Source: Chloroflexota bacterium (GTDB lineage Bacteria > Chloroflexota > Anaerolineae > Aggregatilineales > Phototrophicaceae). Taken from it: a stretch of 51,510 bases of DNA. This document shows positions 10,103-30,168 of the stretch, piece after piece. Location: assembly GCA_028875185.1 (NCBI GenBank), contig JAPPFH010000007.1, positions 1 to 51,510 of the forward strand, written 5' to 3'. Position numbers and translations under genes: made by a program. Numbering within the stretch: position 1 is the first letter of the stretch; each line of letters begins with the position of its first letter. Below the pieces are notes generated by a model, which was given only the letters and a program-made list of their open reading frames with translations, was not told where the DNA came from and did not search any database.

Positions 10103-13100
10103 ATGACACCCAACTTCGCGGATAAACTGCAAAGCTATATCGAAAACGTGAGCAGCGCGCGCAAGAGCCAGGCGCCAGAACGGCAGATCAGTCACCTGTT
10201 TCTAGGTTTTATCAGCGATGCTTTTGGCGTGAACTATGAAGATATTGAGCTAGAGCATCATGTAACGATGAGTAAGGTGCAGAAACATGGCTACGTGGAT
10301 GCCTTGCTGGGCGATCTGCTGATTGAGTTCAAGCGCGACATCAAGACTGAGCTTGGAAGCAATATCGAGCAGCTGCAAAATTACATGCGTGAAATGCCAG
10401 AATTGCATCGCTACGTTGGAATGCTAACCGATGGCGTCGACTTTCGCACTTACGTGCTCGACGATTCAGAAGACCTTAGAGAAGTCGACCAAGTCACAAT
10501 TAGCAACTCGGAGCCTGACACAGTTTATCTCTGGCTCGATGCCTATCTCTTCAGCAGCACGAATATCGAGCCGACCGCCGATGACATCGTGCAGCGCTTC
10601 GGCGTCAGAAGCCCGACCTTCCAGCTTGTTCAGCAAACGCTGACCCGGCTATTGAATGAGATCCAAGAGGACAAAGAGTTGGATGTCTGGCGCGGACAGT
10701 GGAAGGCGCTGCTTAGCAAGGTCTACGGCTCGGACATCGCCGACGACAACTTATTCATACGTCACACGTATTTGTCGCAATTCGCCAAATTGCTCGTCTT
10801 TGCCGCGCTCCAGGGCCGTCCGAACAAACTCGAAATCCCCAGCATTGTCAACGGCGAGGCGTTTCATCAACATGGCGTCAGCAATATCGGCGAGAACGAC
10901 TTCTTCTCCTGGCTGATGATGTCCGCTATTCGCGCTGAATCTATCAATTTCCTCTATGCCCTTTCCGCTGAGTTGCAGGTTTACGACCTTAGCGCCATTC
11001 GTCAGGACTTGCTCAAGCAGCTTTATCAAGACCTGGTTGATCCAGATACGCGCCACGACTTGGGCGAATATTATACGCCCGATTGGCTAGCGCAACTGAC
11101 ACTCGAAGAAATCAACTACCGCTCGCCGCAGAGTTTGCTCGATCCCGCTTGCGGTTCGGGAACCTTCCTGTTTAATGCTATACGCCGCCTCGCGGATAAT
11201 GGCTTGACCGGGCGCGCCCTGGTCGACTTCGCCTTGAACAATATCGTCGGCGCCGACGTGCACCCGCTGGCGGTGACGATTGCGCGTATCAATTATCTTC
11301 TGGCATTAAGCGAGCATCTGGAGACAAATAGCAGCGATGGCGATGTGCCGCCCCTACCCGTTTTTCTAGCCGACGCGCTTATCGGACCATTGACCTGCCG
11401 TGGCCCAGCGGCTGTCCCTATCGCCGTCGATGTGGAGAAAGACGAAGAATTCCGCATCCCGCTCGAATCCGCTGTAGACGAGGACAAACTCACCCGAACA
11501 ATCAACTACATGGATGATTTCGCGAAACTCGCCAACCCCGAAAATACGGCGGCCATGGCAGAGGTGTTCACAAGATGGGTGCAGGACATCTACGGCGGTC
11601 TGACCAATACGACCTTTCGCAACCTCTGGGCGAGCAACTTCCAACTGTTGGTCGATCTTATCCGCGACGGCCGCGACAGCATCTGGGCATATATCCTGAA
11701 GAATCTTTCGCGCCCTCTGGTGCTCGCGGAAAAGGGCTTTGACGTCGTGGCCGGCAACCCGCCCTGGCTCTCCTACCGCTATATCAACAGCCCGGTTTGG
11801 CAAGAAGAAGTGAAGGCGCTGTATACCCACTATGAGTTGATCGATTCCGGCGATGTCAAGCTCTTTACGCAGATGGACTTGAGCACGCTCTTCTTCGCCC
11901 ACGCCAAAGATCGCTACCTGAAAGACGGTGGTACTTTAGCTTTTGTCATGCCCCGCAGCGTGCTTACCGGCGCCAAACAGCACCGCCCATTTCAGCGGCA
12001 AGGCATGACGCGCATTCTCGATGTAGGCGAAGCCAGCCCCTTGTTCAATGTGCCCGCCGCCGTCATCATCTCGTCGGGCGGCGAAATCGTCAAATCGGAT
12101 ATCCCAACCAAAACCTACGCGGCGACCTTCGACAAACATGAACTTCCATTAATTGAAGCCGAGCCTCAAATGACCGTGGGCCAGACCGTGACGAACTTCG
12201 TCGACCCGAATATCGCCAGCATCTATTATTACGAGCTCTTCGCGCAAGGCGCGTCACTGGTCCCGCGCAACCTCTGTTTCGTCCATCCGCCGGGCTTACC
12301 AAACACACCTATCGTCGAGACCGATCCCGAGTTGGACAAAGACGCCAAAGCCCCCTGGAAAGGCATCAAATGGCAAGGAACGGTGCATAGCCCCTACATC
12401 TACGGCACCCTGCTAAGCAAACACCTGCTTCCCTTCGGCTGGCAAAAGCTCAACATGGTCGCCATGCCGGCCAAGCAGAACGAAGCGGGCAAACTCGAAA
12501 TGCTGGAAGACGTGTTGGGCTATGCCGTGGAGGGCTATCATAGGAGTTTCCTCACCTGGTTTGAGAAGATGAGCGACATCTGGGAAGAACGCAAAAGCAG
12601 CACAACGACAGAGACGCTATATGAATGGTTCAACTATCGGAACAAGCTAACCGCGCAGAACGCGAACGATCGATTTCGTGTCATATATGGTGGTAGCGGA
12701 ACGAATATCGCTTGCTGCGTCTTGGAGCTCGACTACGAGGAGTTAAGGATTTACCGACGCCGCGTTCGGCAGTTTGTCGTTGATACAAAGACATACTATT
12801 ATGCGCCGGACACGCTGGAAGAAGCGCATTATCTCTGCGCCGTTCTAAACGCTCCGGTTGTCAATGAAACGATAAAATCGCATCAGTCGCAAGGTTTGTG
12901 GGGAGAACGCGACATTCACCGTACCCCCTTCGAAGCCTGCGCCATTCCCATCTTCGACGCCGGCGATCCCGCCCATCTCGAGCTCGCCCGCTTGAGCATC
13001 GCCGCTCACGAGAAAATCGATGAGATGAAGGGCATGGAAGAAAACCGCTTGCTCAACGGCGGTCCTGGACGGGCAAGGGGAAGAGCGCGCGAAATCCTCG

Positions 13101-13147
13101 CCGCTGAAATCAGCGCGATTGACAAGCTAGTACGTCAAATATTGTAA
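10103..13147 (+). CDS. Type IIG-like restriction endonuclease-methyltransferase
   Basis: A single 1014-residue polypeptide that appears to both cut and methylate DNA. Near the N-terminus D66 and E75-F-K77 form a PD-(D/E)XK nuclease signature (GYVDALLGDLLIEFKRD). The middle is an N6-adenine methyltransferase: GEYYTP near 321, motif I DPACGSGTF (347-355) for SAM and motif IV N552-P-P-W. The remaining 400 or so residues should hold the target recognition region. The start follows an AGGAGCGAGGGA site directly. No separate specificity or helicase subunit for it is present; the downstream hsdR belongs to a different class. A BREX PglX is the main alternative, but the N-terminal nuclease signature argues against it. 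Confidence 0.85.
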   Translation: MTPNFADKLQSYIENVSSARKSQAPERQISHLFLGFISDAFGVNYEDIELEHHVTMSKVQKHGYVDALLGDLLIEFKRDIKTELGSNIEQLQNYMREMPELHRYVGMLTDGVDFRTYVLDDSEDLREVDQVTISNSEPDTVYLWLDAYLFSSTNIEPTADDIVQRFGVRSPTFQLVQQTLTRLLNEIQEDKELDVWRGQWKALLSKVYGSDIADDNLFIRHTYLSQFAKLLVFAALQGRPNKLEIPSIVNGEAFHQHGVSNIGENDFFSWLMMSAIRAESINFLYALSAELQVYDLSAIRQDLLKQLYQDLVDPDTRHDLGEYYTPDWLAQLTLEEINYRSPQSLLDPACGSGTFLFNAIRRLADNGLTGRALVDFALNNIVGADVHPLAVTIARINYLLALSEHLETNSSDGDVPPLPVFLADALIGPLTCRGPAAVPIAVDVEKDEEFRIPLESAVDEDKLTRTINYMDDFAKLANPENTAAMAEVFTRWVQDIYGGLTNTTFRNLWASNFQLLVDLIRDGRDSIWAYILKNLSRPLVLAEKGFDVVAGNPPWLSYRYINSPVWQEEVKALYTHYELIDSGDVKLFTQMDLSTLFFAHAKDRYLKDGGTLAFVMPRSVLTGAKQHRPFQRQGMTRILDVGEASPLFNVPAAVIISSGGEIVKSDIPTKTYAATFDKHELPLIEAEPQMTVGQTVTNFVDPNIASIYYYELFAQGASLVPRNLCFVHPPGLPNTPIVETDPELDKDAKAPWKGIKWQGTVHSPYIYGTLLSKHLLPFGWQKLNMVAMPAKQNEAGKLEMLEDVLGYAVEGYHRSFLTWFEKMSDIWEERKSSTTTETLYEWFNYRNKLTAQNANDRFRVIYGGSGTNIACCVLELDYEELRIYRRRVRQFVVDTKTYYYAPDTLEEAHYLCAVLNAPVVNETIKSHQSQGLWGERDIHRTPFEACAIPIFDAGDPAHLELARLSIAAHEKIDEMKGMEENRLLNGGPGRARGRAREILAAEISAIDKLVRQIL

Positions 13148-13158
13148 GAAGACCTCGG

Positions 13159-13318
13159 CTCAACCCCGCCCCAGTATCCTGGCGAAGCCGGCCCCGCTCC
13201 ACTCGACGCTATCGTGAAACGCGCTCAGCTGGTGATAGAGGCTGATGGCGAGCTCGTCATCGCGCCAGTCATAATCGGCAAGCGCAGCGAAAGGACTCTT
13301 GCCCGTCCGCCGGCCGCG
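13159..13318 (-). pseudogene. Duplicated 3' fragment of the radical SAM gene (left copy of a 160-bp direct repeat)
   Basis: Read on the minus strand, this segment encodes the last 50 or so residues of the radical SAM protein at 15947-16789 (shared stretches FAALADYDWRDDE and ISLYHQLSAFHD, ending at an equivalent stop). Aligned by eye without gaps to 15946-16105, I count 13 differences in 160 bases. It begins 11 bases after the Type IIG gene and ends where similarity to HsdR begins, so it marks a recombination junction. It has no start of its own and is not expected to make a protein. Confidence 0.88.
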
Positions 13319-15922
13319 CCCACCACCACGATGAATCCCGATTATCAGCGCAAGTATGAAGGCAATATCTTCGCCGTCCTGCGGCAGCTGTATTACAAAC
13401 CCGGCGCCAATCTCTCGCTCGATTTGGCGCTTTTCCTCAATGGCTTGCCCATCTTCACCGCCGAGCTCAAGAACAACTTCACCGGGCAGAATGCGCAGCA
13501 GGCCATGCGCCAGTACCGGGCGGATCACGACCCGAAAGAGCCGCTTTTCAAGTTCGGGCGCTGCCTGGCGCATTTCGCCATCGACCCCGATCTGGTTTAT
13601 GTGACCACGCATTTGCGCCGTGACGCGACCTTCTTCCTGCCTTTCAACAAGGGCAAGTATGGCGGCGCGGGCAACCCGCCGGCGCATGACAATTTCGCGG
13701 CGCATTATCTCTGGGAAGAGGTCTGGGCGCGGGACAGCCTGCTCAATCTGCTGGAGCAGTTCATCTACATCAGCGATAAAGATGGCAAGAAGGAAATGAT
13801 CTTCCCGCGCTATCATCAGTTGGACGCGGTGCGGCGCCTGCTGGCTGACGCCCGCGAAAATGGCGCGGGGCAGCGCTATCTGATCCAGCACAGCGCTGGC
13901 AGCGGCAAAAGCTACAGCATCGCCTGGCTGGCGCATCAACTCGCCAACTTGCACAACACGCGCGACCAGAAAGTCTTCGATACGGTGGTGGTCATCACCG
14001 ACCGCCGCGTGCTGGACCGGCAATTGCAGGCGGCGATACGGCAATTCGAGCAGACCCGCGGCTTGGTGGAAAACATCGACCGGACATCGCGGCAGCTCAA
14101 ACAGGCGCTTGAGGACGGCAAGCGGATCATTGTGACCACGCTGCAGAAGTTCCCCTACGTCGTCAATGAAATCGGCAAATTGTCGGGCAGCGCATTCGCC
14201 GTCATCGTGGACGAGGCGCATTCCTCGCAAAGCGGCGAGGGCGTGAAAAGCTTGAAAGCGACGCTGTCCCCGGCCGACGCGGCGCCGGACGAAGACGACC
14301 CCGACCCGCCAACCTGGGAAGACACGATTGTCGAATCTATGCGCGCGCGCAAGCAGCCGGGCAACATCAGTATGTTCGCCTTCACCGCCACGCCCAAAAA
14401 CAAGACGCTCGAACTCTTTGGCGAGCGCCGTCCCGCTGGCGGCTTCGAGGCATTCAGCCTTTACAGCATGCGCCAAGCGATAGAAGAGCGCTTCATCCTC
14501 GACGTCCTGGAGAATTACACCACCTACAAGTCTTACTGGCGCCTGCTCAAAAAGATTGATGAAGACCCGGAATATCCGAGCGGGAAAGCCAAACGCCTCT
14601 TGACCAAATATGTCGACGATCATCCGGAAAGCATCGGCAAGAAAATCGAAATCATCGTCGAGCACTTCCGCGAACATGTCACGCCGCAGATCCGCAACAA
14701 AGCCAAGGCGATGATCGTCACGCGCTCGCGCCTGCACGCCGTTCGCGCCTTCATGGCGCTTAAGCAATATCTAAGCCAGCAGGGTTATGACTATGGCGCC
14801 TTGGTCGCTTTTTCCGGGGCGGTAAACGACGGCGGCGTCGAGTTTACTGAAGCGAAAATGAACAGTTTTCCGGAGGCGCAAACGGCGGCGGCTTTCAACC
14901 AGGATGACAATCGTTTCCTCGTCGTCGCCGAAAAGTTTCAGACCGGCTTCGACCAGCCCCTGCTGGCCGCCATGTACGTCGACAAGCCCTTAAAAGGCGT
15001 TCATGCGGTGCAAACCCTGTCCCGCCTGAACCGGATACACCCGCAAAAGACTTCGACAATCGTGCTCGATTTCGTCAATCAAGCGCAGCATATCCAAGAG
15101 GCGTTTAAGCCTTACTACGAGGCGACCATCCTCAGCGAAGGCACGGACCATAATCTGCTATATGAGAAAGAGCGCCTGCTCGCCGATCATCACTTTCATA
15201 CGCAAACCGACGTAGATGCCGTTGCCGCCGCGACCATTATGGGAAAAGTCGACCAGAAGCAATTGAGATCGCTCCTTGCCCCGGTTCTTGAGCGGATAGA
15301 CGCGGCCCCCGAAGATGAACGGGCGGAATTCCGCAGCGATCTTACCGATTACATCCGCCTCTACGCTTTCCTGTCGCAGCTCATTCCCTTTGAAGATGTG
15401 AGGCTTGAAAAGCTCTACGAGTTCGCGCGCCATCTGCGGCGGCTTCTGCCCGCCGACCGCGAGCAGTTGCCGACCGAGATCCTCGACACTATCGACATCG
15501 ATTCTTATCGTCTGCGGCAAACAAGCGAAGGCTCGCTCACGCCGGACCGACGCCTCGACATGCTCGAGCCAATGTTAGAGAGTGAAAAATATGGCGCTAG
15601 TGAAGACGCCTTCGCGCCCCTTTCCGAGATTATCCAGTTTCTCAACGAGGTCTTCGGCGACGAATGGGAGCAGGCGTATAAGACGATAGCGGAGGTCAAG
15701 CAAGAGGTTTCTCGAGATCCGGGAGTGGCAAACGCGATCCGCATCAATCCGCCGGATAAAGCGCGCCCTACTGTGGATGGCGCCGTGATCGACGCTATAA
15801 CCAAGCGATATAAGAGCCACTTCAAGTTTTTCAAACGCGTGAATGACGACCCCTTCGTCAAGGGCTTTCTTCTCGACTGGTTCTTTGACGAGTTGCGCCA
15901 GCGCAAGAGCGAAGATTCCTAG
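13214..15922 (+). CDS. hsdR: Type I restriction enzyme R subunit, 5'-truncated, chimeric start
   Basis: Up to 902 residues of the HsdR motor-nuclease. D70 and E84-L-K86 with the following QAMRQY motif form the nuclease site; HSAGSGKS (227-234) is Walker A and DEAH (333-336) motif II of the SF2 translocase. Full HsdR proteins have roughly 100-130 more residues at the front. Here homology begins at about residue 40 (MNPDYQRKYEGN, ATG at 13331), and the first 39 codons read antisense through a copied radical SAM fragment. No hsdM or hsdS gene is in the window. The frame is intact and the nuclease motifs survive, so it may be a truncated orphan, a partly active protein or a decaying gene. GTG 13214 and ATG 13331 are both possible starts. 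Confidence 0.85.
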   Translation: MKRAQLVIEADGELVIAPVIIGKRSERTLARPPAAPTTTMNPDYQRKYEGNIFAVLRQLYYKPGANLSLDLALFLNGLPIFTAELKNNFTGQNAQQAMRQYRADHDPKEPLFKFGRCLAHFAIDPDLVYVTTHLRRDATFFLPFNKGKYGGAGNPPAHDNFAAHYLWEEVWARDSLLNLLEQFIYISDKDGKKEMIFPRYHQLDAVRRLLADARENGAGQRYLIQHSAGSGKSYSIAWLAHQLANLHNTRDQKVFDTVVVITDRRVLDRQLQAAIRQFEQTRGLVENIDRTSRQLKQALEDGKRIIVTTLQKFPYVVNEIGKLSGSAFAVIVDEAHSSQSGEGVKSLKATLSPADAAPDEDDPDPPTWEDTIVESMRARKQPGNISMFAFTATPKNKTLELFGERRPAGGFEAFSLYSMRQAIEERFILDVLENYTTYKSYWRLLKKIDEDPEYPSGKAKRLLTKYVDDHPESIGKKIEIIVEHFREHVTPQIRNKAKAMIVTRSRLHAVRAFMALKQYLSQQGYDYGALVAFSGAVNDGGVEFTEAKMNSFPEAQTAAAFNQDDNRFLVVAEKFQTGFDQPLLAAMYVDKPLKGVHAVQTLSRLNRIHPQKTSTIVLDFVNQAQHIQEAFKPYYEATILSEGTDHNLLYEKERLLADHHFHTQTDVDAVAAATIMGKVDQKQLRSLLAPVLERIDAAPEDERAEFRSDLTDYIRLYAFLSQLIPFEDVRLEKLYEFARHLRRLLPADREQLPTEILDTIDIDSYRLRQTSEGSLTPDRRLDMLEPMLESEKYGASEDAFAPLSEIIQFLNEVFGDEWEQAYKTIAEVKQEVSRDPGVANAIRINPPDKARPTVDGAVIDAITKRYKSHFKFFKRVNDDPFVKGFLLDWFFDELRQRKSEDS

Positions 15923-28077: not shown

Positions 28078-28097
28078 ACCGTTACACATGTAACGGT
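28078..28097. promoter_or_regulatory. Candidate ParB-binding palindrome, copy 1
   Basis: ACCGTTAC-ACAT-GTAACGGT: two perfect 8-base arms around a 4-base centre, in the gap between the primase-polymerase stop and the parB stop. The same arms and spacing recur at 28366-28385. ParB proteins bind 16-20 bp palindromes close to their own genes, so this is a candidate centromere (parS) of a sequence unlike the common chromosomal one. Confidence 0.65.
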
Positions 28098-28116
28098 TCT
28101 TCTGTCGGGTGAGCGG

Positions 28117-28145
28117 GCGCATCGAGCGATGCGCTTTTTGTTTTG
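28117..28145 (+). terminator. Rho-independent terminator of the primase-polymerase gene
   Basis: GCGCATC-GAGC-GATGCGC forms a 7-bp stem with a 4-base loop, followed by TTTTTGTTTT. It reads only in the plus direction and lies about 90 bases after the gene, just past the first palindrome. Confidence 0.8.
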
Positions 28146-28175
28146 CTGGTTGTGAGCTGAAGTGGGGTGGACGCC

Positions 28176-29384
28176 TTAGCCGGCAGATTCGTCGATGTCC
28201 GCCATGAGACGGAGCAGCTGTCTGATTTCAGCTTCGATCAGTTTGCGCAGCTTGGGCCGGTTGTGGATATCGGGCGAGTTGATCTCTTTGCGGAGTTTGT
28301 TGCGCCATTGGGTGGCGTCGGCTGCCAGGCGCGTAAGCGCGTCCTTCTTGCGCTTGCTTCGGGGAACCGTTACACGAGTAACGGTATCGAGGGCAGAGCG
28401 CATTTTTCGCAGCTCGCCTTCGCTCAGGTCTTCGTCATCGCCCTTGCGCCAGAGCTCGGCGGGAAGGCGCAAAAGCGCGCGATACTGACGCAACTGCCCG
28501 GCATCGGACAAGCCCATGGCGTTGAGCAGCCGCTCGCCCTGGCCGCGCGGGATACGCCAGCTAGACCCATCGGCGACTTGCGCGTAAAAAGCCTGCTCGC
28601 TATCGCAAGCGCCCAGATTGCGGAAATTGTGCCAGCCGTGCAAATCCATCAAGAGCAGCGATAGCTGTCGCGCGCGGCTGATCGCGTTGAGGTTGTCGCG
28701 CGCGTTGTTTTCACTCGCTTGGCGCCAGACATCGACCTGCGTGACGATGCGAGCCGGGATGCGCGACCAGTTGACGACTGTGCCATCGGGTCGTTTGTCG
28801 CCATCGCCAAACTTCCAATACAGTATGTGATAGGCGAGCCAGCGCCGTTCGCCCGTTTCGATTTCGTAATGGTCGTCGTGCTGCACGAGGCTGATAGGAT
28901 TGGACAAGCCGTCGCGGCGGATGCTCGCGGCTAAGTCAATCAGCTTCATCAGGGCGTATTCTTTGCTGGCGGCTATTGAGCTGGCTGGCGTTGATTCCCC
29001 GTCTTGGCTTTCGGCGCGTTCACCGCGGTCGGTCGCCTTGCCCATGAGGAAGCTGAGGATGTCATACTCCTTCTGCCCCTTCTCGAGCCCCACTTCAATG
29101 ATCCAGCGCTCGAAAATGTCTACGATATTTGTGGCCTGCAGCGCGAAGATATCGGTTATGTCGTGAGGAATACTGTAACGCGGTTGGATGGAATTTGGCT
29201 GAATCTCATGGATGCTGACCGCTTCAATTGGCTGGAATTCGCTATCTGCGGCCGCGATCTCTAGACCTAGTTCTCCCAAGCCAAAACCGATAGCATCGGC
29301 TGTTTTGGCGTCCAGCGTATTGGGATTGGAGAATAGCAGGTTTTCTTCGTCTTGTATTTTGCGTCGCCGTTCACGACTGCTCAT
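28176..29384 (-). CDS. parB: ParB/Spo0J-family partition protein
   Basis: A 402-residue ParB-like protein. The N-terminal CTPase/ParB domain appears split: [13 protein letters not shown] at 59-70 and then, after about 75 extra residues, [18 protein letters not shown] (151-168) with the hallmark [11 protein letters not shown] (176-186) and [17 protein letters not shown], the segment that follows in CTP-binding ParB proteins. Centre and C-terminus are helical and basic ([14 protein letters not shown]). ParB binds a palindromic centromere and spreads; ParA then moves it. The start codon overlaps the end of parA by 14 bases. One of the two candidate sites lies inside this gene. The insert in the N domain is unusual and marks a divergent, plasmid-type ParB. 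Confidence 0.87.
28366..28385. promoter_or_regulatory. Candidate ParB-binding palindrome, copy 2 (inside parB)
   Basis: ACCGTTAC-ACGA-GTAACGGT, with arms identical to copy 1 at 28078-28097 and a related centre (ACGA against ACAT). It lies within the 3' part of parB, where it encodes TVTRVTV. Centromere sites within or beside parB are common. Confidence 0.65.
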
Positions 29385-30168
29385 ACATCCGTTCCTCCAA
29401 CTGCTCTACCAGGCGCCAGGCGTCGTCGGCGGTGCCGCTGCTGGGGGCAAGCGAGAAGACGGTACGGCGCGCGCTCGCCACTTCGGTCCAGATCGTGCGC
29501 ACGGGAAGCGGCTTCCACACCAGACTGCCGAAGGTATCGTGCAGGCGGCGCAGATTGTCCTGATGCTCGAGGGTCCGGCCCCGGTACATCGTCGGCACCA
29601 CCCCGAGGACTTTGATATCATTCAAATTGTATTGCTGGCGAATCGGGCTGAACTGGTCTTTGTGCGTCAAGCTTTCCCGCAGACCATCAAAGCTCCAGGC
29701 TTCGCATTTTGTCGGATAGATGATGCCGTCAGTGGCCATGTAAATCGAAGAGTGCAGCAGAGACGGCGTCGGCGATGTATCAAAAAACACAAAATCAATT
29801 GCGTTGCGCAATTGATTGAATCGCTTCAAAACGGTGAAAGCATCGGATATGTTGCCAGCGATGCTCCGCGTCTCGATGTTTGAAGGCACGACCAGCAACT
29901 GACCAACAGTGCTGTTGGCTTCGTCCGGTACGTTGAAGCGCTCCGCCGGCACCGGGCGCAACACCTTCTGAAAGGGCGCGTTGCGTACGATCAGATCGTA
30001 AAAGCCAGGCTCCTTCGCCAAGCCGAATGCAATCGTGGCATGTCCCTGAGGATCGGCATCAACCAAGATAACGCGTTTGCCCTTAATGGCCAGACCAGCA
30101 GCCAAATGGGTAGCCAGGGTCGTCTTGCCAACCCCGCCTTTTTCGTTCAGAAGAGTGATGATTTTCAT
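29371..30168 (-). CDS. parA: ParA-family partition ATPase
   Basis: A 265-residue ParA/MinD-type ATPase. The deviant Walker A is K10-GGVGKTT (10-17), the switch region [15 protein letters not shown] (36-50) and Walker B-like [11 protein letters not shown] (about 126-136). It lacks the long N-terminal helix-turn-helix of P1-type ParA, so the separate winged-helix protein upstream probably does the autoregulation. The ATPase binds DNA when ATP-bound and is released by ParB, moving plasmid or chromosome copies apart. It is the second gene of a three-gene minus-strand operon (winged-helix, parA, parB), 14 bases after the first. Confidence 0.93.

Follow-up and report, generated by a model that had tools for sequence, protein, structure and literature searches.

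Chromosomal ParB proteins and their parS centromeres are usually seen as strongly conserved, with one well-studied switch of specificity, that from ParB to Noc. Noc is itself a ParB-family protein, its specificity for the Noc-binding site (NBS) TATTTCCCGGGAAATA being altered through a few residues of the helix-turn-helix (HTH) region (PMC7383237), and a parS site within the parB gene has a precedent in parS-359 of B. subtilis (PMC4442127). In repABC replication-partition cassettes, variable palindromic parS sites (GTTNNCNGCNGNNAAC) are found beside the cassette, and some of them overlap coding sequence, for instance at the 5' end of repB (PMC9040568). Here we analyze a partition locus of an uncultured Chloroflexota bacterium (Phototrophicaceae), located on contig JAPPFH010000007.1, a whole contig of 51,510 bases (hereafter the window) from a genome of 4,372,157 bases that is 93.8% complete. 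The locus encodes a divergent ParB and carries two 20-bp palindromes (Table 1), which a first-pass annotation had proposed as the binding sites of this protein. Taken together, the sites themselves, their linkage to parB, selection on their DNA, a recurrent architecture, and covariation with the ParB HTH make it very probable that both palindromes function as parS in a divergent ParABS system, and that one of them is embedded in the linker-encoding part of the parB it serves.

The locus resembles canonical ParABS systems in its ParB_N CTPase motifs, its HTH, an adjacent ParA, and a symmetric site near parB; as in type I ParABS, the ParA is of the Walker type, and its gene overlaps parB. The window ParB has the ParB/KorB/Noc fold with an HTH DNA-binding domain, and the CTPase motifs (QPR, GERR, and EN..R) are invariant at Q67, P68, R69, G178, E179, R181, E225, N226, and R229 in 36 aligned sequences, with R180 retained in ≥90%. 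The first-pass annotation had set the palindromes apart from the common chromosomal site, which holds for 4 of 16 bases only: the two sequences are related, the consensus core CGTTACACGTGTAACG agreeing at 12/16 bases with the inner 16 of TGTTTCACGTGAAACA, and the half-sites differ at arm bases 3 and 7. The core thus falls outside a limit of ≤2 mismatches to TGTTTCACGTGAAACA, and no match to this canonical parS was found at ≤2 mismatches in the source genome. Unlike in canonical parS, arm bases 6–8 vary in this family, whereas the parS and NBS consensus both read TTC at the aligned bases (PMC7383237; half-sites aligned by hand). Compared with Noc, parA is adjacent, the arm reads GTTAC rather than the TTTCCC of NBS, and a stretch of ~65 additional residues separates box I from the remainder of the window ParB; Noc and ParB differ at half-site positions 1 and 6, whereas the family described here varies at bases aligned to positions 3, 4, and 5. 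Unlike in repABC, the neighbor of parB is a Prim-Pol gene (PF09250) instead of RepC, with no RepC family among the neighbor-gene matches at E ≤ 1, and the intragenic site maps to a single homologous position, in the 3' linker region of parB. The likeness to KorB of plasmid RK2, the best fold match, is one of fold, and the window ParB had no match in PLSDB or INPHARED at an E-value of 1e-5. Within Chloroflexota, dnaA, dnaN, parA, and parB share one chromosomal locus in the class Ktedonobacteria (PMC13289182), unlike here. The main text of a ParB-fold survey does not contain the word Chloroflex- (PMC12704722), and a literature search, with subscription papers mostly outside its reach, retrieved none that deals with parS in this group or with a co-diversifying parS embedded in a linker.

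Table 1 Features of the partition locus (window positions)
Feature	Position	Strand	Basis or remark
parS-like site 1, ACCGTTAC-ACAT-GTAACGGT	28078..28097	.	Intergenic, Prim-Pol and parB convergent around it
Terminator-like hairpin with T run	28115..28136	+	Consensus match only; distinct from site 1
parS-like site 2, ACCGTTAC-ACGA-GTAACGGT	28366..28385	.	Inside parB, codons 334–340, peptide TVTRVTV
Glu322 codon	28419..28421	-	Top covarying column for arm base 8 (z 7.4, next 3.8)
Gln300 codon, recognition helix	28485..28487	-	Top covarying column for arm base 7 (z 9.9, next 4.3)
Gly296 codon, recognition helix	28497..28499	-	Top covarying column for arm base 6 (z 6.4, next 3.7)
parB (protein P0001), 402 residues, divergent	28176..29384	-	ParB_N domain, Pfam PF02195, 31.1 bits (cut-off 26.3)
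parA, 265 residues, Walker-type partition ATPase	29371..30168	-	Overlaps parB start; Pfam AAA_31, E 3.2e-30
Prim-Pol gene, 685 residues	25973..28030	+	Convergent with parB; Pfam PF09250, 60.4 bits
Small open reading frame, 80 residues, possibly winged-helix	30189..30428	-	Upstream of parA; PF08100, 20.8 bits, weak, below cut-off

Both palindromes proved to be present as first annotated, with identical 8-base arms, the intergenic copy starting 48 bases past the end of the primase (Prim-Pol) stop codon. At ≤3 mismatches, they are the only two matches in the window, which agrees with the earlier report that it holds no third copy; by comparison, 100 shuffled windows yielded a mean of 0.11 matches, and one of the 100 reached two. 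They are also the sole matches at ≤2 mismatches in the source genome, where seven further, scattered places match at exactly three mismatches, while a reversed-pattern control gave 29 matches at ≤3 mismatches. An exact match to the 16 fixed bases is expected ~0.0008 times by chance in a genome of this size (58% GC assumed). Since the commonest center of the intragenic copy in 30 loci of the genus is ACGT, the ideal site would be a 20–22 bp palindrome, [TA]ACCGTTACACGTGTAACGGTA.

We then evaluated the linkage of site and parB in 151 genomes, at least 96 of which, counting the source genome, contained ParB matches. Places with ≤1 mismatch numbered 56 in 37 genomes, and for 51 of these, a ParB-family match was no more than 2 kb away, i.e., the clustering near parB that the first-pass annotation had anticipated, as opposed to a random scatter without link to parB. 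Among the 34 genomes of the genus set, 30 provided full-length parB orthologues (L006–L035, ~69–100% identity), and all 30 carried both an intragenic, in-frame copy 207–225 bp before the stop codon and a downstream copy 68–1431 bp past it, each with ≤2 mismatches in 16 arm bases. Among the matches listed for the remaining genomes, G015 had ParB matches on two contigs, G031 only a 45% match, and G014 none. The 24 named orthologue records are metagenome-assembled genomes (MAGs) labeled Chloroflexi, Chloroflexota, or Anaerolineae, which, to judge from isolate names, may originate from sponges. In the G028 bin, two parB copies with sites are found on the short contigs C11 and C16 (L089 and L088), with read depths of 69x and 12x according to the record names, and this bin perhaps mixes two strains.

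Palindromes near the 3' ends of two convergent genes could also be transcription terminators or mRNA hairpins, and site 1, located between Prim-Pol and parB, does look terminator-like in a consensus scan (8 pairs, 4 of them GC). However, the adjoining hairpin (Table 1) has more pairs as well as a T run, and may itself terminate Prim-Pol transcription. In addition, the second copy lies in coding sequence, in the same frame and 207–225 bp before the stop in 30/30 parBs of the genus, and the arms are conserved in sequence, beyond pairing, and covary with ParB residues. A role as terminators is hence most improbable as an account of the two palindromes.

The intragenic copy further bears marks of constraint at the nucleotide level. 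Its cores CGTTAC and GTAACG are invariant in the 30 orthologues, and entropy at the four-fold degenerate third positions of V335, T336, V338, and T339 is 0, 0.21, 0, and 0, with 0.81 at the central R337, as compared to a mean of 1.25 (standard deviation 0.41) for the 99 other four-fold columns of parB, a single one of which reaches 0. Only 5 of 1191 six-base parB windows, counting those of the site, are as invariant as each core. Over the whole 20 bases, the site is among the lowest-entropy windows (0.25), although variation at its outer bases keeps it from ranking lowest of all. For the downstream copies, conservation is confined to a stretch of ~21 bases, within which the center, the second base, and, in 7/30, the fifth base vary, and the flanks are mostly unconserved. 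Because synonymous positions are frozen in the intragenic copy, its DNA is, on this evidence, under selection.

An alternative is that the intragenic copy is nothing but a conserved peptide, T-V-T-x-V-T-V, with incidentally palindromic codons, which would fit with the shared reading frame (15/16) and similar peptides of distant homologues. Yet third positions are frozen while other four-fold columns vary, and the residues encoded at the center and ends change (R/P/G; V/I/L/A/K/Q; T/S/N) while both cores remain constant. Near-identical DNA also occurs outside the gene in 30/30 loci, and changes in the wider family affect the two arms symmetrically. In the structural model, the encoded peptide (residues 334–340) runs into a stretch with a predicted local distance difference test (pLDDT) score <50 (residues 336–346), located after the DNA-binding part and ahead of the C-terminal helices. 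Overall, we consider that peptide conservation by itself has a very slim chance of explaining this copy.

Next, we extended the comparison to 72 other ParB-family loci of relatives, which include the divergent copy of genome G033. The zone scored for palindromes began 40 bases ahead of the homologous place and extended to 100 bases past it, or else covered the first 10 bp past the stop codon, and those located >10 bp past the stop were left out as possible terminators. Within this zone, perfect 8-4-8 palindromes were 21-fold enriched (21 of 10,933 positions vs 44 of 474,272), and a zone palindrome was detected in 21/72 loci, with 15 of the 16 in-gene cases in frame 0. The arms differ between loci and include ACCGTAAC, CGCGTAAC, ACCGTCCA, AGTGTCGG, ACCGTGAC, and ACTTCTCC, among others, while TCCGTGAT arms are found in one copy within parB and one downstream. 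Across the family, both arms vary in concert, as expected for binding by a symmetric dimer, and the outer bases appear by eye to be the least variable. Seven genomes (G038, G041, G042, G053, G060, G066, and G086) had two site-bearing ParBs among those fetched, and by hand count, the arms differed between the members of each pair. For ParBs with S296/E300 (L183, L184, L186, L189, L190, L191, and L193), GTCGG..CCGAC palindromes, often with AATT as the center, were observed in parB or downstream, and L189 displayed several copies of this type across ~1.3 kb. When viral contigs were scanned for exact sites of two arm classes, 20 stretches were returned; in three of these (L244, L245, and L260, the last being the contig of L219), the site is in a ParB-family gene and in frame 0.

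We also compared ~345 alignment columns to each arm base in 31 non-redundant ParBs (<65% identity). These were drawn from 53 ParBs that passed the site rule, among 102 loci with a parB frame (30 of the genus and the 72 others), themselves part of all ParB matches listed for the 151 genomes. For arm bases 6, 7, and 8, the top-scoring columns correspond to residues 296, 300, and 322 (Table 1), the first two being one turn apart in the modeled helix 295–304. By profile alignment to B. subtilis Noc and counting by hand, the counterpart of residue 300 is N178 of Caulobacter ParB and that of residue 322 is position 200, which adjoins the ParB/Noc switch residue 201; N178 contacts parS, and residue 201 is the specificity switch between ParB and Noc (PMC7383237). 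This covariation points to the recognition helix of ParB as the reader of the arms, although which residue touches which base is inferred.

Letter rules for bases 6–8 were written by eye from the covariation set and applied to a hold-out of 17 ParBs from viral contigs, fetched after the scan. A site could be called for 11 of these; of the six without, the near-alike L231 and L232 carry a perfect in-frame palindrome outside the zone. Base 8 was C exactly when residue 322 was E (11/11), and base 7 was A exactly when residue 300 was Q, H, or N (10/11, with L220 failing). In pooled tables of 42 non-redundant ParBs, of which 41 had the same base in both arms at the position compared, base 8 was C with E in 32 cases and C without E in none, another base with E in one, and another base without E in eight. 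The corresponding counts for base 7 were 24 for A with Q/H/N, one for A without, one for another base with, and 15 for another base without. On a tree of the N-terminal domains of the 42 proteins, bases 6, 7, and 8 changed at least 21, 14, and 9 times, respectively. Within this sequence set, site and protein change together, and the code is partly readable. The family thus seems to have switched its site many times, at half-site positions other than those of Noc and often while keeping the site in its own gene. Natural protein–site pairs of this kind would make the evolution of DNA-binding specificity directly testable, could provide orthogonal ParB–parS pairs for DNA labeling and plasmid design, and suggest that the centromere of uncultured bacteria may be readable from sequence.

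Several observations weigh against interpreting the palindromes as parS. Five of the 56 places with ≤1 mismatch are far from any ParB match, four with one mismatch each (G082, G087, G089, and G043) and one perfect (G042). By hand count, the reversed pattern, which is not tied to ParB, also matched 32 times at ≤1 mismatch in 30/151 genomes, so that the evidence is the linkage to ParB, not the raw match count. The divergent ParB of G033 (59%) has four downstream sites but none within parB, no perfect zone palindrome was detected in 51 of the 72 other loci, nine of which belong to a second ParB paralogue in the genus, and 17 of the 20 exact viral matches fell in stretches without a ParB-family gene, matches that may be due to chance in a very large collection. 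Regarding the code, the rule for base 6 (residue 296 being G/S/A for T, T/V for A, K/R for A, and D for G) was kept in only 4 of the 7 hold-out cases to which it applies (L224, L228, and L233 fail; four others are uncovered), and is loose even in the scan set, where K/R accompanies A, C, or T. Moreover, independent well-supported pairs on the same tree number only 3–5 per trait, most of them as expected, with a median p of 0.125–0.5, so that strict phylogenetic control is as yet without power. Finally, dnaA was not found near the parB locus, and GC skew gave no convincing origin near it, with no clear minimum in G009 or G030. Even so, the linkage of 51/56 places to ParB and the covariation with the recognition helix support the original proposal that these are sites of the divergent ParB.

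The perfect palindrome of G042 lies on the same contig as a ParB, 37 kb away (L075:9947-9966; G042:C35:527946), and is a candidate distal parS. The second genus paralogue (L085, L158–L162, L165, L166, and L168) is 348–364 residues long, with the helix FENASRIRQYR and S296/Q300, and showed no clear palindrome; L168 has a decayed GTTAC-like site (6/8) in its linker, and this paralogue may share or have lost its site.

A closer competitor is that the sites serve as operators for ParB autoregulation, and not as centromeres. Some ParB-family proteins, namely KorB and RepB, also repress at palindromes. For RepB, such a role has been described (PMC9040568), and KorB, a repressor too, is the best fold match of the window ParB. 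However, neither site is positioned at a parAB promoter, since site 2 falls at the 3' end of parB and site 1 beyond it, 1.0–1.3 kb downstream of the parB start. Binding by ParB is common to both interpretations, which differ only in function, and we regard a purely regulatory role as improbable.

As parS, each 20–22 bp site would be docked symmetrically by a ParB dimer, with residues 296 and 300 of the recognition helix (~295–304) reading arm bases 6 and 7, and base 8 being read by residue 322. By analogy with the ParB family, ParB would then load as a CTP-dependent clamp, close, and spread, and ParA would move the ParB-bound locus for segregation; for the window ParB itself, CTP binding, hydrolysis, and clamp sliding are inferred from the motifs. 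One site would lie in the codons of the flexible linker of ParB, between its DNA-binding and dimerization parts, so that protein and centromere travel as one gene, with the second site downstream at a variable distance. Carrying the site within parB may serve, we suggest, to prevent protein and site from being parted whenever the cassette moves or its specificity shifts.

In all 24 named genus loci (L087–L110), parA immediately precedes parB and is contiguous with it, and Prim-Pol is convergent with parB at ≤~1.6 kb. Other window genes, including short-chain dehydrogenases/reductases, an acetoacetate decarboxylase-like gene, and a UvrD-like helicase, flank ParAB in most of these loci, some of which are incomplete. 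That the locus resides on an accessory plasmid or a phage is disfavored by the lack of PLSDB and INPHARED matches and by the flanking genes conserved across the genus, the latter arguing against a recent accessory plasmid. The parAB locus is probably a chromosomal core locus. Its parB was the only match found in a ParB_N search of the source genome, and no second ParB was found there. Prim-Pol homologues with 29% and 33% identity also lie near the ParAB of L073 and L081, whose ParB is only ~40% identical, so that Prim-Pol may represent the initiator of an ancient module for replication and partition.

How the 3–5 Mb genomes of this genus start replication is a question raised by an apparent loss of dnaA. 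A search for the DnaA C-terminal domain found it in 112/117 other relatives but in only 6/34 genus genomes, leaving 28 without a match, the source genome among them, while dnaN was detected in 34/34. In the source genome, the dnaA neighbors (transketolase, a small open reading frame, and a VWA protein) are in order on contig C147 but without dnaA, the gap between the small open reading frame and VWA measuring 446 bp (L243:6107-6552) vs 0.9–1.0 kb plus dnaA in three dnaA-bearing relatives. PF00308 gave two above-cut-off matches in the source genome, both in one 525-residue frame and at 42 and 37 bits, compared to 213 for the true DnaA of G023. This neighborhood is on a different contig from parB, and the contigs are unordered. 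Loss of dnaA, with irregular GC skew, has been reported in free-living cyanobacteria (PMC7198777). Here, GC skew across the window and parts of four relatives' contigs is weak and irregular, with local minima near parB in the window, in G023 (which has dnaA), and in G025. DnaA boxes (TTWTNCACA) were absent even beside intact dnaA in three loci, and hence no oriC can be named.

One speculative scenario would be that a plasmid-type module, made of a Prim-Pol initiator, ParAB, and a linker parS, settled in the chromosome and took over replication and segregation, permitting loss of dnaA and adjoining DNA, with the wider ParB family forming a library of orthogonal centromeres with a three-residue code. 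Such a takeover resembles laboratory "integrative suppression". Against it, the dnaA-less G014 and G031 have no orthologous ParB among the matches listed, and the GC skew at the locus does not reveal a clear origin; we view this scenario as unlikely.

Other features of the window and source genome are more peripheral. The small open reading frame upstream of parA has a 71% identical homologue in L080, L102, and L109. Elsewhere in the source genome (G000:C139:944-1732, L234), a second ParA/MinD-like ATPase is encoded near an FtsW/RodA-family gene. Lastly, window positions 10103–15922 hold a gene resembling DNA methyltransferases and, after it, an HsdR-like gene (TIGR00348, E 2.9e-63, below cut-off), which together likely form a restriction-modification system.
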